Source of the DNA: Planctomycetota bacterium
Lineage (GTDB): Bacteria > Planctomycetota > Planctomycetia > Gemmatales > Gemmataceae
NCBI GenBank assembly: GCA_021325115.1
Contig: JAJPHU010000060.1
Span: forward strand, 1-43,538
DNA: 43,538 nt
Direction: 5' to 3'
The translations under genes and the position numbers were made by a program. The notes below the pieces were generated by a model. The model was given only the letters and a program-made list of their open reading frames with translations, made no database searches and was not told the DNA's origin. This document shows, in pieces, positions 20,549-28,621 of the stretch. Numbering within the stretch: position 1 is the stretch's first letter; every line of letters starts with the position of its first letter.

Positions 20549-22651
20549 TCAGTAGTTCTCCTCCGGATGCAGCAATGCCCGCAATACTTCCTCTGGCGCG
20601 GGCCGGTACTTGTACGGCTCCATGGAGGATGATGCGCGGCCCTGGCTCAGACTGCGCACTTTATCGGCGTAGTCGAACATCTTCGACAACGGCACGATGG
20701 TTTCCAGTGTGCAGAGGCCATCGCGGTTTTCCAGCTTGTTGATCTCGGCCCGTCGGGCGTTGAGATCCGATGTCACCGGGCCGAGGAATTCTTCAGGCAC
20801 GATCACTTCCAGCTTCATCCACGGCTCCAGCAGCACGATGTTATCGCGCATCGCCTTGTGGACTGCATCGGCGCCGGCAGCCTGGAAGGCCGTGTCGTTG
20901 GACAATTGTTCGTCCATCTCGCCATCGAGAATCACCGCCTTGACGTTCATAACGGGAAAACCTAACTCGCCGGAATCGAAAGCACTGCGGATACCTTGCT
21001 CGGCGGCGGCCACGAACAACGGCGGCAACTTGTCCGATGGCAGACGTGATTCTACCACAATCGACTCCTCGCCCCTGTACGGCTCGAAGGCCACCTGCAG
21101 CTTGGCGAATAAACCGCCCTGGCCGGCGTGCTTGATGCATTCGCCCGTCACCGTGACGGCGCTGCGGATCGTCTCGCGGTAGCTGACGCGCGGCTGGCCG
21201 ACGCGCACTTTTAGACGAAAATCGCGCTCCATACGGTGTTGCTTGATCTCCAGGTGCAACATGCCCATGCCGCTCATTAACGTTTGTCCGGTGTCCTTGT
21301 CTATGTTCCAGGTGAAGGTCGGATCTTCTTTGCGCAAGATGTTGAGGACAGAGATGAGCTTGTCCTTGTCGGCCGATGATTCCGGTTCGATGGAACGGCT
21401 GACAACTGCCTCGGCGAACTGGATGCGTTCCAACAAAATGGGATGCTGGAGGTCACACAACGTATCGCCGGTGATCGACTCTCTCATGCCGATGACGGCT
21501 ACGATGTCGCCGGCCACGGCCTCGGAGACTTCCGTGCGCTGGCGGGGGTCAGCCTCGGTGTGATAGAGCTTGCTGACCATCTCCTTACAATCGCGGCCAG
21601 GATTGTAAGGTCGGCTGTTGGCCTTCAGGATGCCGGAGTAGACGCGCACAAAGTACAGCTCCCCCTTGACATCGGCAACGATTTTGAAGACCAGGCCGCA
21701 GAACGGCTCTTTGGGATCGGGTTTACGGATCTCTACTTTGTCTTTTTTCTTGGGATGAATGCCGCGGATCGGCGGGCGGTCAAGCGGACTGGGTAGATAC
21801 CAGGTCACAGCGTCCAAAAGAGGTTGAATGCCGATATGTTCACGTCCCGATCCACAAAGCACCGGCTGAATCAGTCCCTTGAGCGTCTGCTCACGTAGCA
21901 CGGCCCGGATGGTGTCGGCGGGAATGTCCTTGCCTTCGAGATAGGCACTGGTCAACTGATCGCCCTCGTCGTGCTGCGTCAGTTGGTCGAAGAGTTTCTC
22001 CCGCCATTTCTGGGCCTTGGCTCGTAGTTTGTCGGGGATCGACTCGGCACGGAACGTCTTGCCCTGGTCAGCGGGATCGAAAGAGAGGGCTTGCATCTCC
22101 AACAGATCGATAATGCCCGAAAAAGGAGTGGCACTATCCTTGATGGAGCCGGAGCCGATGGGGATGTTGATGGCGACGGGGTTGCCGGCCAGTCGACGGC
22201 GGATGGCTTCCAGGACGTTCTCGAAATTGGCACCGACCACATCCATTTTGTTGATGAAGGCCAGCCGCGGCACTCCGTACTTATCGGCCTGTCGCCATAC
22301 GGTCTCTGACTGCGCCTCCACACCTTTCTGAGCATCAAAGACGACGATAGCGCCGTCCAGCACACGCAGACTGCGTTCGACCTCGGCAGTGAAATCGACG
22401 TGGCCAGGCGTGTCGATAAGGTTGATGGTGCAGTCGCGCCACGGGAAGGGAATGCAAGCGCTGTAGATGGTGATGCCGCGCTGCTGTTCTTCAAGATCGT
22501 AATCGGTTTCGGTGGTGCCGGCATCGACCGTTCCCAAGCGATGCTTGGCGCCACTGTAGTAGAGCAGGTGCTCGGTGGTCGTGGTTTTGCCTGCATCAAT
22601 ATGGGCAATGATGCCCAGGTTGCGGAACTTGCTCAGGTCTATCTTACTCAT
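20549..22651 (-). CDS. fusA: Elongation factor G
   Basis: The 700-residue product starts at an ATG with GGGGGTGAT upstream. The GTPase motifs are intact: AHIDAGKTTTTE (G1), RGITI (G2), DTPGH (G3) and NKMD (G4). Domains II-V follow, with domain IV near VRVGQPRVSYRETI. EF-G catalyses GTP-driven translocation of tRNA and mRNA on the ribosome, and also helps recycling. Sequence details such as TETDYDLEEQQRGITIYSA and the end GRASSSMEPYKYRPAP differ from the classical EF-G I and suggest the spdEFG group known from spirochaetes, planctomycetes and delta-proteobacteria; this is inference. The gene is in the str-operon place after rpsL and rpsG. Confidence 0.96.
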   Translation of the reverse strand: MSKIDLSKFRNLGIIAHIDAGKTTTTEHLLYYSGAKHRLGTVDAGTTETDYDLEEQQRGITIYSACIPFPWRDCTINLIDTPGHVDFTAEVERSLRVLDGAIVVFDAQKGVEAQSETVWRQADKYGVPRLAFINKMDVVGANFENVLEAIRRRLAGNPVAINIPIGSGSIKDSATPFSGIIDLLEMQALSFDPADQGKTFRAESIPDKLRAKAQKWREKLFDQLTQHDEGDQLTSAYLEGKDIPADTIRAVLREQTLKGLIQPVLCGSGREHIGIQPLLDAVTWYLPSPLDRPPIRGIHPKKKDKVEIRKPDPKEPFCGLVFKIVADVKGELYFVRVYSGILKANSRPYNPGRDCKEMVSKLYHTEADPRQRTEVSEAVAGDIVAVIGMRESITGDTLCDLQHPILLERIQFAEAVVSRSIEPESSADKDKLISVLNILRKEDPTFTWNIDKDTGQTLMSGMGMLHLEIKQHRMERDFRLKVRVGQPRVSYRETIRSAVTVTGECIKHAGQGGLFAKLQVAFEPYRGEESIVVESRLPSDKLPPLFVAAAEQGIRSAFDSGELGFPVMNVKAVILDGEMDEQLSNDTAFQAAGADAVHKAMRDNIVLLEPWMKLEVIVPEEFLGPVTSDLNARRAEINKLENRDGLCTLETIVPLSKMFDYADKVRSLSQGRASSSMEPYKYRPAPEEVLRALLHPEENY

Positions 22652-22670
22652 ATGGCATCACCCCCAAACA

Positions 22671-22830
22671 ATTTAACCGCCAAGACGCCAAAAACGCCAA
22701 GAGAAGAAAAGCGCGAACGAAAAAGAAAGAAAAGAACCATGACCGGAACGCCGCACATGCTTCTCTTCGTTCTTCGTTCTTCGCTCTCTCTTTTCTTCTC
22801 TTGGCGTTCTTGGCGTCTTGGCGGTTAAAT
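22671..22830. repeat. 160 bp hairpin element with 41 bp near-perfect arms
   Basis: The arms 22671-22711 and 22790-22830 match at 40 of 41 positions. Their outer ends read ATTTAACCGCC / GGCGGTTAAAT, followed by CAAGACGC and CGCCAAGA-type units. The 78 nt middle (purine-rich then pyrimidine-rich) can pair further. It fills nearly the whole rpsG-fusA spacer and ends about 20 bp before the fusA start, so a co-transcript would carry this structure between the two cistrons. It has the CGCCAAGA units also seen at 19496-19609. Confidence 0.95.
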
Positions 22831-22834
22831 TATT

Positions 22835-23311
22835 TTACCAGGCGAAGTGGGCGAAGGCTTTGTTCGATTCGGCCATTTTGATAGTGTTTTCGCGTTTGGT
22901 CATGGCTTCGCCCTCCTTGCGGTAGGCCGCCATCAACTCGTCGGCCAGACGCAGATACATCGGCCGGCCCGTCTTGTGACGCGCCGCTTCGATGATCCAG
23001 CGGATGGCCAAGCTCTGCTGCCGCTTCTTGTTCACCTGCATCGGCACCTGATAGGTAGCACCGCCGACGCGCTTGGAACGCACCTCAACAGTCGGCTTGA
23101 CGTGCTCGACCGCTTGCGTGAACACTTCCATCGGATCGGCGTCGGGCATGCGTTTCCTGATCTGTTCCAGGGCGCCGTCAAAGATGCGCGTGGCCGTGGC
23201 TTTTTTGCCCTGCCACATGATGCAGTTGATGAACTTGACGGCCAGTTCTGTCCGGCCACTCAGACGCGCATTTTGCTCCAGGGTCTCTTTACTGGCGGTT
23301 CGCTTTCCCAT
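22835..23311 (-). CDS. rpsG: 30S ribosomal protein S7
   Basis: The 158-residue product is full length for the family. Visible landmarks are the basic N-terminus, KFINCIMWQGKKATATRIFD, the conserved VGGATYQVPMQV loop, and RWIIEAARHKTGRPMYLRLA. S7 nucleates assembly of the 30S head by binding the 3' major domain of 16S rRNA and contacts tRNA in the E site. In E. coli S7 it also represses str mRNA translation; the presence of a small Cys-rich gene between rpsL and rpsG here means that the E. coli intercistronic S7 site is not conserved in position. Confidence 0.98.
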   Translation of the reverse strand: MGKRTASKETLEQNARLSGRTELAVKFINCIMWQGKKATATRIFDGALEQIRKRMPDADPMEVFTQAVEHVKPTVEVRSKRVGGATYQVPMQVNKKRQQSLAIRWIIEAARHKTGRPMYLRLADELMAAYRKEGEAMTKRENTIKMAESNKAFAHFAW

Positions 23312-23389: not shown

Positions 23390-23632
23390 CTAATTCAACG
23401 ACGGCTGCGGCAGCGGCCGATAACACACGCAAGGCCGTACCGACCGCACTGTGCCGCTGGCCTCGAACGACAATTGATTGATGGTGCCGCAGGTCGGACA
23501 CGGCACCTTGACGTCAGGCAAGTCCTGGTCCCTTAATTTTTCTCCTCGGCATTGCACTGTGACCGTGACACATTCTTCGCACCCACAACACACGAAACCG
23601 AGCGTCAATTTCAATTCCATCATCACGTCCAT
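23390..23632 (-). CDS. Small Cys-rich putative zinc-ribbon protein within the str operon
   Basis: The 80-residue product follows AGAGGAG; ATG at 23632 is chosen, with an ATG pair 9 nt downstream as alternative. Nine Cys are present: C15, C16, C18, C21, C28, C45, C48, C68, C70. The groups CCGCEEC and CPTCG resemble zinc knuckles and could form one zinc ribbon. The middle VPCPTCGTINQLSFE and the tail GTVRSVRP are conserved-looking, and the C-terminus is Pro-rich. I do not recognise a named family. The gene sits between rpsL (90 bp upstream) and rpsG (78 bp downstream), same strand, so it is probably co-transcribed and might bind nucleic acid or a ribosome-related partner. Confidence 0.7.
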   Translation of the reverse strand: MDVMMELKLTLGFVCCGCEECVTVTVQCRGEKLRDQDLPDVKVPCPTCGTINQLSFEASGTVRSVRPCVCYRPLPQPSLN

Positions 23633-23722
23633 CCACTCCTCTTTGAGACGGACTGGTTAGCGACACCTTGCCGAAACGCCGCGGGCAACGACGCTTCCTA
23701 TAAGCGCCGTTAACCGGCCAGA

Positions 23723-24097
23723 TCATTTGCCTTCACGCTTGGCGCCGTACTTGGAGCGGGCCTGTTTGCGATCGGCCACACCTTGGGCGTCGAGAACGCC
23801 GCGAATGATGTGGTAGCGGACACCAGGCAGGTCGCGGACGCGGCCGCCGCGCACCAGCACGATGGAGTGCTCTTGCAGGTTGTGTCCCTCGCCTGGAATG
23901 TACGCTGTCACTTCGACGCCGTTGGACAGACGAACACGCGCCACTTTGCGTAGCGCCGAGTTGGGCTTTTTGGGCGTCATGATCTTGACTTGCAAGCACA
24001 CGCCCTTCTTCTGCGGACAGCCGTGCAACGCTGGATGTTTGGGCCGACGATACTGCGTCACACGCGGCTTGCGAACTAACTGGTTGATGGTCGGCAT
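23723..24097 (-). CDS. rpsL: 30S ribosomal protein S12
   Basis: The 124-residue product is normal length and carries the decoding-site motifs [18 protein letters not shown] and [19 protein letters not shown]12 lines the decoding centre of the 30S subunit and controls accuracy. The residue matching E. coli Lys87 is Arg88 here ([11 protein letters not shown]; codon CGC at 23836-23834); in several bacteria Lys-to-Arg at this site confers streptomycin resistance. The Lys at the other common site (PKKPNS) is kept, as is Asp89, the RimO methylthiolation site. The gene heads the str part of the cluster, 147 bp after rpoC. Confidence 0.98.
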
Positions 24098-24172: not shown

Positions 24173-24239
24173 CGGCGAGCGGAGTCGTGTTAATACCGCG
24201 AGCGCAGTGCTCGGGATACTAACACGACTCCGCTCGCCG
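24173..24239. repeat. Perfect 20 bp inverted repeat between rpoC and rpsL
   Basis: The arms 24173-24192 and 24220-24239 are perfectly complementary over 20 bp and share the outer GGCGAGCGG. The inner part has a weaker GAGC/GCTC stem. In place of the GGGG/CCCC seen in sister elements, both arms carry matching changes (GGAGTCG / CGACTCC), so pairing is kept. It starts 6 bp after the rpoC stop and lacks a T-run. Confidence 0.95.
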
Positions 24240-24244
24240 GGGGG

Positions 24245-27200
24245 TTACTCCGTAGCCCCGACGATTTCCGCCTGATCGGCGGCCTCCTCGGCAGCTTCTT
24301 CGCCAAGGGCGGTTCGCAACGCCGGGGCAGTCAGGCGCACTTCGGCCTCCTGATGCGTGCGGAAGCCTGTGCCGGCTGGGACCAGGTGGCCGAGGATGAC
24401 GTTCTCCTTCAAGCCGACCAGATAATCGACCTTGCCGGCCAAGGCCGCCTCGGTCAGCACCTTGGTCGTCTCCTGGAAGGACGCCGCTGAGATGAAGCTG
24501 TCCGACTGTACCGCCGCCTTGGTAATGCCCAACAATTGCGTACTGCATGTCGCTGGCATCGGTGTTGTGTAGGTCGGCAGCTCCTTGCCTTCCGCCTCCA
24601 AACGCGCTCGTTCTTCCTCGAACGCTTCCTTGCTGACGATCTTGCCGGCCACGAACTTGGAGTCGCCCGGATCCTTGATCTTGACGCACTCCTTCAGGCG
24701 ATCATTGACAGCGCGGAAGGCGAACTTATCGATGATCGAGCCAGGCAAGAGTCCCGTATCGCCCATCGTTTCCACCTTCACCTTGCGCAGCATTTGAGCC
24801 ACGATGATTTCGATATGTTTGTCGTCGATGTCCACGCGCTGACTGCGATAGACCGACTGCACTTCCGTGACCAGGTAGCGCTGCAATTCCTCGATGCCAG
24901 AGATCTTGAGGATCTCGTGCGGCACCAGCGGGCCGAACACCAGGCGTTGGCCCTCCTTGACACGGTCGCCGGTGTGGACGGCCAGGTGTTTGCCGGGCGG
25001 CACCTGATGCTCGCGCTCTTCGCCGACCGGCTTGCCGTTTTCATCGACCGGCTGAATGTAGATGAGCCGTTTGCCGCGTTTCTTCTCGCCCAGACGGACG
25101 ATGCCGGCCACCTCGGCCATCTTGGCCGGATCACGCGGCGTGCGTGCCTCGAAGATTTCCGTGACGCGCGGCAAGCCGCCGGTGATGTCCTGTGTGCCGG
25201 ACACCTCGCGCGGCGTCTTGGCCAATAGCGTGCCCGCCGACACTTTCATACCTTCGCGCACTTCCAGATACGCTTTCTCCGGCATGTAGTACGTGGCCAG
25301 GATCTGGCCGCGCTCGTCCTCGATGATGACCTGCGGGTGCAGGTCACCTTTGTGCTCCAGGATCACCCAGCGCTCGGCGCCAGTGACTTCATCGCGCTCC
25401 TTTTTCAGTGTCTGGTCCTCAACGATTTCATCGAAACGGACGCGGCCAGAGAACTCGGCGACGATCGGCGTGATGTGCGGGTCCCACTTGCACAACACTT
25501 GCCGCTCTTGTACTGTCTGGCCGTTCTCGACCAGGAGCACAGCCCCATTGGGGACGGCGTAGCTTTCCAGCACCTTCTCGTCCTTGGCGCCGGCGGTCTT
25601 CGGTTCGACGATCTTGATCTCGCCATTACGGCACAGGGCGATGCGTTCCCCTTTGTCGTTGAGGACATCGGTGATGCGCTCATAGCGGATAATGCCAGCC
25701 CTCTTGGCTTTGGCTTCCGACTCGCCCATCTCACGCTTGACGACACCGCCGATGTGGAAGGTGCGCATGGTCAGCTGCGTGCCCGGCTCGCCGATGGACT
25801 GAGCGGCGATGATGCCCACGGCCATGCCTTCCTCGACCAGCGCCCCGGTGGCCAGGTCCATGCCGTAGCACAGCCGGCACACACCCAGAGGCGCCTGGCA
25901 AGTCATCGGCGAACGCACGATGATCTTGTCGATGCCCATCGACTCGATTTTGCGCGCCGCTTCCCAGGAGATCATCTCATTTTCATCGACGATCATCTGA
26001 CCGGACACCGGATCCTTGATGGGATTGCGGCTGACACGGCCGCGGATCGTCTCGGACAACGGCCGCTCGATCTGCTCGCCCTTGTAAACCACGCCCTTGC
26101 TGACGCCCTGGGTAGTACCGCAATCATGCATGGTGACGACGACGTTCTGGGCCACGTCGGCCAGCTTGCGCGTCAGGTAACCCGAATCGGCCGTCTTCAG
26201 CGCGGTATCGGCCAAGCCCTTGCGGGCGCCGTGCGTCGAGCTGAAATATTCCAGTACACTGAGACCCTCACGGAAGTTGGCCTTAATGGGCGTCTCGATG
26301 ATGGTGCCGTTAGGCTTAGCCATCAGGCCGCGCATGCCAGCCAATTGGCGAATCTGCTCGGTGCCGCCGCGCGCGCCGGAGTTAGCCATCAAGTAGATCG
26401 GATTCAGGTACGGTCGTACCTGGCCGGTCTCGTCCTTGCGGCGATCGTTGCGCAGATCCTCCATCATCTGATCGGTGATCTGATCACGGGCATGAGTCCA
26501 CAGATCGATGACGTTGTTGTAGCGTTCGACCTCAGTGATGTTGCCGCGATCATACTGCTTGCGGAAGTAATCGACTTTCTTTTCGGTTTCGGCCAGCACT
26601 TTTTCCTTGTTGGCCGGCGTTTTCAAGTCGTCCGTGGCGAATGACAGGCCAGAGCGCGTCGATTCACGGAAGCCCAGGTCCTTCATGCGGTCGAGCAGAT
26701 CGATGGTCTCGCGGCGGCCGAGCAGCTGATAGCAGTCGGCGATGATGCGCGCCAGGTGCTTGCTCGATAGCGACAGGTCGTAAAACGCCATTTTCGGATT
26801 GAGAATGTCGTTGAACAAGACTCGGCCAACCGTGGTGAAGACCAGGCCGCTCGACTTGCGCGGCACTTCATCAACGCGTGTCTGGCCTTTTTCCACCTTG
26901 ATCTCGCTGATGACCTTCTTGTCAATGGGCAAGCGGACGTAGATGCGCGCGTGAACGCCGAGCTTTTTCTGGGAATAAGCGGCGAAGACTTCCTGGACGC
27001 TGGCGAAGGTCTTGCCCTCGCCGGCTTCGCCGGATTCACCCAACTCACCGCGCGTCGCCGTCAGGTAGTAGCAGCCCATGACGATGTCTTGCGACGGGCT
27101 GATGATCGGCTGTCCGTTGGCCGGACTGAAGATGTTGTTGGTAGACATCATCAGGATAGTCGCTTCTACCTGCGCCTCGATGGAGAGCGGCAGATGTACA

Positions 27201-28621
27201 GCCATCTGGTCGCCATCGAAGTCGGCGTTAAAGCCTTTGCATACCAACGGGTGGATGCGGATGGCGTTGCCTTCGATCAACACCGGCTCGAATGCCTGGA
27301 TGCCCATGCGGTGCAAGGTCGGCGCCCGGTTGAGCAGCACGGCATGGTTCTTGATGACCTCTTCGAGGATGTCCCAGACCTGCTCTTCCTTACGTTCGAG
27401 CATCTTCTTGGCCGACTTGATGGTGTCGGCATGGCCCAGTTCCTTGAGACGGCGGATGATGAACGGCTGGAACAGCTCCAGGGCAATCTTTTTAGGCAGA
27501 CCGCACTGGTGCAGCTTCAGCTCGGGGCCGACGACGATGACGGAGCGGGCCGAGTAATCGACGCGTTTGCCCAGCAGGTTCTCGCGGAAGCGGCCCTGCT
27601 TGCCCTTAATCATGTCGGTCAGCGATTTCAGCGGCCGATTGCTCGATCCCAGTACCGGACGCTTGCAGCGATTGTTGTCGAACAAGGCATCGACCGACTG
27701 CTGGAGCATCCGTTTCTCGTTGCGGATGATGACTTCAGGGGCATTGAGGTCCACCAGTTTCTTGAGACGGTTGTTGCGGTTGATAATACGACGATAAAGA
27801 TCGTTCAAGTCGCTAGTGGCAAAGTTGCCACTGTCCAGAAGCACGAGTGGCCGTAGATCAGGAGGAATAACCGGGATGCACTCCAGCACCATCCACTCTG
27901 GCTTGTTTTGCGGTCCGCCCAGACCGGAATCGCGCAGCGACTCGACCACTTTCAAGCGCTTGACCAGATCGCGCTGTTTCTGTTTGGACGGCTTATCCTT
28001 TCGGTTCTCTTCGTCGAGTTTTTCGCGCAGCTCGATGGCCAGCTGGACCAGGTCGAGATCTTCGAGCAGCTTCTTGATGGCCTCGGCGCCCATGTCTGCC
28101 TCGAAGGCGTCGCCGTAGTTTTCGCGGGCCTTGCGGTAGTCTTCCTCGGTCAGGAGTTGATACTTCTTCAAGGGCGTATCGCCCGGATCAATGACGACGT
28201 AATCCTGGAAATAAATGATCTTTTCCAGACTGGTCGTTTTCATGTCCAGGAGCGTGCCCAGCCGCGACGGCATGGCCTTGAAGAACCAGATGTGGACGAC
28301 GGGGGCGGCCAATTCGATGTGGCCCATACGTTTGCGGCGAACGCGGCTGTGCGTGACCTTGACGCCGCAGCGGTCGCAGATCATACCCTTGTATTTCATG
28401 CCGCGGTACTTGCCGCAGGCGCATTCCCAGTCCTTCTCCGGGCCGAAGATGCGCTCGCAGAACAAACCATCCTTTTCGGGACGATAGGTCCGATAATTGA
28501 TCGTTTCCGGCTTTTTGACTTCGCCGAACGACCAGGAGCGAATATCATGCGGACTGGCCAGGCTGATGCGCACCGCCCCATAGTCGTTGATACGATCGTA
28601 ATTCATTTCGCCGTTACTCAT
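24245..28621 (-). CDS. rpoC: DNA-directed RNA polymerase subunit beta'
   Basis: The 1458-residue product has an AGGAGG site upstream of ATG. The N-terminal zinc finger has C67, C69, C82 and C85 ([15 protein letters not shown]). The catalytic [12 protein letters not shown], with three Mg-binding Asp residues, is near residue 465. The second zinc site is formed by a Cys near residue 833 (MHDCGTTQG) and [11 protein letters not shown] near 905-916. It is slightly longer than the E. coli subunit (1407). With beta it forms the polymerase active centre. rpoC follows rpoB after 94 bp, as in nearly all bacteria, and both lie in the tuf-to-fusA cluster. Confidence 0.98.

Follow-up and report, generated by a model that had tools for sequence, protein, structure and literature searches.

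The window, that is, the whole stretch of 43,538 nucleotides analysed here, carries a str operon on the minus strand. The genes run from rpoC (24245–28621) through rpsL, encoding S12 (23723–24097), and rpsG, encoding S7 (22835–23311), to fusA, encoding EF-G (20549–22651). A small gene, here designated X, occupies positions 23390–23623 of the same strand and encodes a protein of about 77 amino acids. Its upstream neighbour is rpsL and its downstream neighbour is rpsG, the position given in the first-pass annotation of this DNA, with rpoC before and fusA after. These four genes were the only flanking genes matched around X. Co-expression of X with S12 and S7, also proposed in that annotation, is plausible, given the shared strand, spacers of about 80–100 nt and Shine-Dalgarno cores upstream of 21 of the 30 X genes described below. 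A promoter- or terminator-like site was looked for on the coding strand of the stretch from rpsL to rpsG, and none was found.

Two hairpins are present in the neighbouring intervals. The interval between rpsG and fusA (22666–22835) contains a large imperfect hairpin with 66-nt arms that are 88% complementary. The stretch covering its first arm matches 30 further sites in the same genome (E ≤ 0.001), and the hairpin therefore belongs to a dispersed repeat. The interval between rpoC and rpsL contains a hairpin at 24173–24239 with 31-nt arms, 90% complementary, which is single-copy in the genome and could be a control element. An Rfam scan of the region revealed no conserved RNA family. Its hits were confined to microRNA models below threshold, lying on the two hairpins, and were rejected as hairpin artefacts.

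The open reading frame of 80 codons first read at this place (23390–23632, minus strand) is present as described, and its product has nine cysteines, including those of the motifs CCGCEEC and CPTCG. The frame stands; the assignment of its first methionine (Met1, 23632) as the start is probably wrong. The translation start is likely 23623 (Met4) or 23620 (Met5), because the relatives begin at the positions of Met4 or Met5 and because a Shine-Dalgarno-like core, GAGGAG (23636–23641, minus strand), is separated from Met4 by 12 nt; only 3 nt separate it from Met1. The ribosome-binding site noted earlier is thus indeed near the gene and suits the Met4/Met5 start better than Met1. Among the 30 X genes, 21 have a GGAG, GAGG or AGGA core within 15 nt upstream, compared with 3.1 expected from shuffled upstream sequence.

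The distribution of X was studied using sequence and profile searches. A search with the single X sequence against 41 genomes (its own and 40 relatives) gave matches with E ≤ 1.5e-6 in 16 of them, and weaker rows were taken as chance. All 16 genes are flanked by rpsL and rpsG. The only match in the window's own genome at E ≤ 0.001 is X itself. A profile built from the 16 sequences (A1) was run on 102 genomes of the window's order, and searches of the class and the phylum were also carried out. Full-length X was found in 30 of the 102 genomes (E ≤ 6e-21), of which 25 belong to one family (f1) and 5 to another (f2). Homologues thus exist in other planctomycetes, and all 30 copies share the strand of rpsL and rpsG and stand between these two genes; none has moved elsewhere. 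A thirty-first candidate, in genome G062 (E 0.004, with an internal stop), was dropped as a chance match. The remaining 72 genomes of the order have no credible X, some of these assemblies being incomplete. Among 397 genomes of the class, the profile found no full-length X outside the order, only the same 30 and seven genomes with weak partial matches, G062 being one of the seven. Among 392 genomes of the phylum, again no full-length X was found outside the order; besides the window's own, there was one weak partial match. As far as searched, X appears to be confined to one planctomycete order.

The distance from rpsL to rpsG in the 30 carriers ranges from 312 to 634 nt. The junction was read in 40 of the 72 genomes without X, and 39 of them have gaps of 3–182 nt. 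The fortieth, G009, has a gap of 329 nt (L068, 3377–3705) with no X frame, which is possibly a decayed remnant of the gene. The slot had been described as almost always free of other genes, and this is borne out in the sample studied. Outside the order, 29 planctomycete loci were read; rpsG was in reach in 27, and their gaps measure 2–179 nt and contain no ORF of 40 amino acids. At the other two loci, L151 and L155, rpsG was not found in the vicinity of rpsL.

A tree was built for 70 genomes (30 carriers and 40 genomes lacking X) on the basis of S12 and S7 together with parts of EF-G and RpoC; it is a quick tree, with 14 poorly filled rows. Presence of X requires three changes on this tree, compared with a mean of 22.9 after shuffling, and at least two changes are forced by well-supported branches. 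The count of changes alone cannot separate gain from loss. X is found on both sides of the split between f1 and f2 and also in several branches that leave f1 early, and because of this the simplest reading is one old acquisition followed by two or three losses. The alignment columns in which a change accompanies each absence of X (two in S12, three in S7, one in EF-G and ten in RpoC) were set aside, as the two large X-free groups of f1 may be a single clade and no chance level stands behind the counts.

The nonsynonymous sites of X evolve more slowly than the synonymous ones. The dN/dS values are 0.08–0.28 in 14 of 15 pairs, several with dS > 1 and hence rough, and indicate that X is under purifying selection. 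The exception is the close pair G016 and G086, with a ratio of about 1 resting on nine changes. The protein diverges fast: the mean p-distance, calculated for 14 of the 30 genomes, is 0.58 for X against 0.10 for S12 and 0.21 for S7. In the same 14 genomes, X distances track S12 distances once RpoC is corrected for (partial r 0.33, with 3 of 1000 permutations as high), and this correlation is suggestive. The corrected correlations of X with S7 and EF-G in these genomes do not stand out; values as high arose in 92 and 106 of 1000 permutations, respectively. The two checks that the first-pass annotation had set for its proposal, on relatives and on site constraint, both came out in its favour. 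Judged on these sequence comparisons, X is a genuine, conserved gene.

The 30 proteins were aligned (A2) and numbered from the window's Met4, so that adding 3 gives the number in the frame as first read. Seven columns are invariant: C12, C15, C45, F53, G57, S75 and N77. The first CxxC knuckle (C15 and C18 of the 80-residue frame; 23579–23590, minus strand) is present in all 30 proteins. The second (C45 and C48 of that frame; 23489–23500, minus strand) is present in 28; one protein lacks the first cysteine of the pair and in another the two cysteines are set two residues further apart, the second cysteine being invariant. A fifth cysteine, C28 of the 80-residue frame (codon at 23549–23551, minus strand), is found in 29 of 30 proteins. 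In family numbering, the two cysteines that are each lost once are C25 and C42. All nine cysteines are real in the window protein and only five are common in the family, the other four being lineage features. The C-terminal P-S-x-N of X (23393–23404, minus strand) has asparagine as the last residue and serine as the third-last in 30 of 30 proteins, and proline as the fourth-last in 29. All three kinds of stop codon follow the terminal asparagine. The pI of the 30 proteins lies between 4.4 and 8.8, mostly neutral to acidic; the values for S12 and S7 are 11.2 and 10.2.

Searches of Pfam, NCBIfam and PDB profiles returned nothing usable for the whole protein, and the description of X as unrecognised holds for Pfam and NCBIfam. 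No paper on the family was found in the literature searched. The best PDB profile rows, papillomavirus E7 zinc domains (E 0.0013 and 0.0035), have in common with X only the layout CxxC–about 30 residues–CxxC, which was taken as convergence. Two structure models were predicted, one from A2 with the window protein first and one from A3, comprising 23 of the 30 proteins, with another member first. Both models are all-beta with loops at both knuckles (mean pLDDT 82 and 84, pTM 0.59 and 0.63). VIA-align placed five LysW entries on top for each model: Z 4.9–4.3, rmsd 1.8–3.2 over 45–52 residues for the first, and Z 4.5–3.9, rmsd 2.2–4.7 over 45–54 residues for the second. No Z reached 5, and the tool itself cautions that values in this range may mean only a common arrangement. 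Small ribosomal chains, which we take to be bL33, appeared for both models at Z 2.4–2.9, level with unrelated rows, and were left aside. Foldseek gave nothing at E ≤ 0.001, the best E being 0.49. The two CxxC-type knuckles expected of a zinc beta-ribbon are present, and X appears to represent a new, unclassified family of small zinc-ribbon type, defined by these knuckles and by the exactly C-terminal (P)-S-x-N.

An accessory factor with a binding partner is in keeping with the fixed slot, the ribbon pattern and the unvarying C-terminal tail, and the position of the gene suggests that this partner is in translation. Our best explanation, held tentatively and somewhat short of probable, is that X is a translation-linked accessory factor made together with S12 and S7. 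It is predicted to be an all-beta zinc ribbon in which the two knuckles would hold one zinc ion and are followed by the tail ending in P-S-x-N. Presumably co-made with S12 and S7, the protein would act at the translation apparatus in an accessory and not a core capacity, the ribbon serving as a binding platform and the tail docking on the partner. Candidate jobs are assembly of the 30S subunit or the handling of S7, S12 or EF-G. The zinc-sensing role suggested in the first-pass annotation found no support beyond the zinc-ribbon pattern, and the interpretation given there is supported in part. The accessory reading is favoured by the correlation with S12 distances, by the tree and by the constraint on the gene. 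Several points speak against it. Viewed across the order, X is dispensable, the fold matches are weak, the corrected correlations with S7 and EF-G are unremarkable, and the pair G016 and G086, on its nine changes, does not show the constraint seen in the other pairs. Moreover, ribosomal operons keep their gene order in any case, and operon conservation alone could freeze an inserted gene without a role in translation.

This last objection leads to the strongest rival, which we regard as a real possibility although not the favoured one. X would be a small adaptor of zinc-ribbon type working elsewhere than in translation, for instance by binding another protein or a nucleic acid; having entered the ancestral str operon, it would have stayed there as the operon is rarely rearranged. 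Its fast evolution and two or three losses are consistent with such a passenger, as are similar ribbons on planctomycete proteins outside translation, namely a kinase-like protein and a 148-residue protein of the window's own genome. However, none of the 30 genes has moved, even though the two families separated long ago, and the correlation with S12 distances also argues against a passenger.

Control of the str operon is an unlikely alternative. X would bind the rpsL-X-rpsG mRNA or its regulator and tune the output of S12, S7 and EF-G, perhaps replacing S7 feedback. According to PMC10931766, S7 of Escherichia coli acts as a repressor when bound to the region between the rpsL and rpsG cistrons, and coupled translation is required. 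X occupies the junction where this feedback acts, which makes operon control a testable rival. Three points disfavour it: the region contains no conserved RNA family in the Rfam scan, X is not clearly basic, and a regulator need not be so bound to one slot.

Returning to the accessory reading, a more specific proposal sees X as a chaperone or assembly factor encoded in the operon and dedicated to S7, S12 or both, which would hold its clients via the invariant P-S-x-N tail. We consider this specific form improbable, at about the level of operon control or slightly below it. Eukaryotes have dedicated ribosomal-protein chaperones, and if the proposal were true, X would be a bacterial counterpart of them, made between its two clients.

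Still less probable is an integral, stoichiometric protein of the small subunit. The place in the operon would suit such a protein, and some ribosomal proteins are small zinc ribbons. X nevertheless does not look like a core ribosomal protein because of its mostly neutral-to-acidic pI, fast evolution and losses: it does not have the strongly basic composition of S12 and S7, its mean p-distance is well above theirs, and most genomes of the order have no credible copy. The composition is not a strict criterion, since some true ribosomal proteins are acidic. A LysW-like carrier, with a substrate on the C-terminal residue, is very doubtful. LysW entries rank first for both models and the C-terminal residue of X is invariant, but the Z values of 3.9–4.9 may reflect only a common arrangement, the slot holds no metabolic gene, and the terminus is not of the LysW kind. 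A spurious or non-functional ORF, for which one could cite its absence from most genomes of the order and the one close pair with dN/dS of about 1, was rejected as hardly credible in view of the 30 copies conserved at a single site, the purifying selection on them, the excess of Shine-Dalgarno cores and the invariant motifs.

The rpsL-rpsG slot holds no ORF of 40 amino acids at the 27 readable loci sampled elsewhere in the phylum. X has been kept in it across an order with an invariant C-terminus. Either this lineage has added a component to translation or to its control, or X is a notable example of a passenger frozen in place; the protein is small enough for direct experimental test.

Among known systems, the amino-group carrier protein LysW is a small zinc beta-ribbon, the type predicted for X, and is the top structural match of both models. 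The two differ in that the identity is only 14–21% and X sits in the str operon. In addition, the C-terminal motif of LysW ends in Glu (EDWGE), whereas all 30 X proteins end in S-x-N. A functional analogy, relevant to the reading of X as a chaperone of S7 or S12 only, is provided by trigger factor acting on S7, which, according to PMC10931766, shields a small-subunit protein before assembly; trigger factor is a general chaperone, and no relation to X is claimed. The Pfam family PF14255 (Cysteine-rich CPXCG) matches only the region of the second knuckle. The window protein gives no match to it at all, three of the 30 proteins match at E ≤ 1, and one of ten scanned apart scores 25.4, just above the Pfam gathering cut-off of 25.2, with 20 of 52 positions covered. 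There is also a sequence likeness to N-terminal zinc ribbons of larger planctomycete proteins, which have F-x-C-x-x-C, about 30 residues and T-C-P-x-C as in X. The best match outside the order is the ribbon of a Ser/Thr-kinase-like protein (L127, 529–1851, minus strand), with E 2.6e-5 over 49 positions; unlike X, it is a domain of a larger protein and is without the S-x-N end. The 148-residue ribbon protein of the window's own genome also matches the profile weakly (E 0.004). By this thin link, X may be a stand-alone derivative, specific to the order, of the ribbons carried by other planctomycete proteins.
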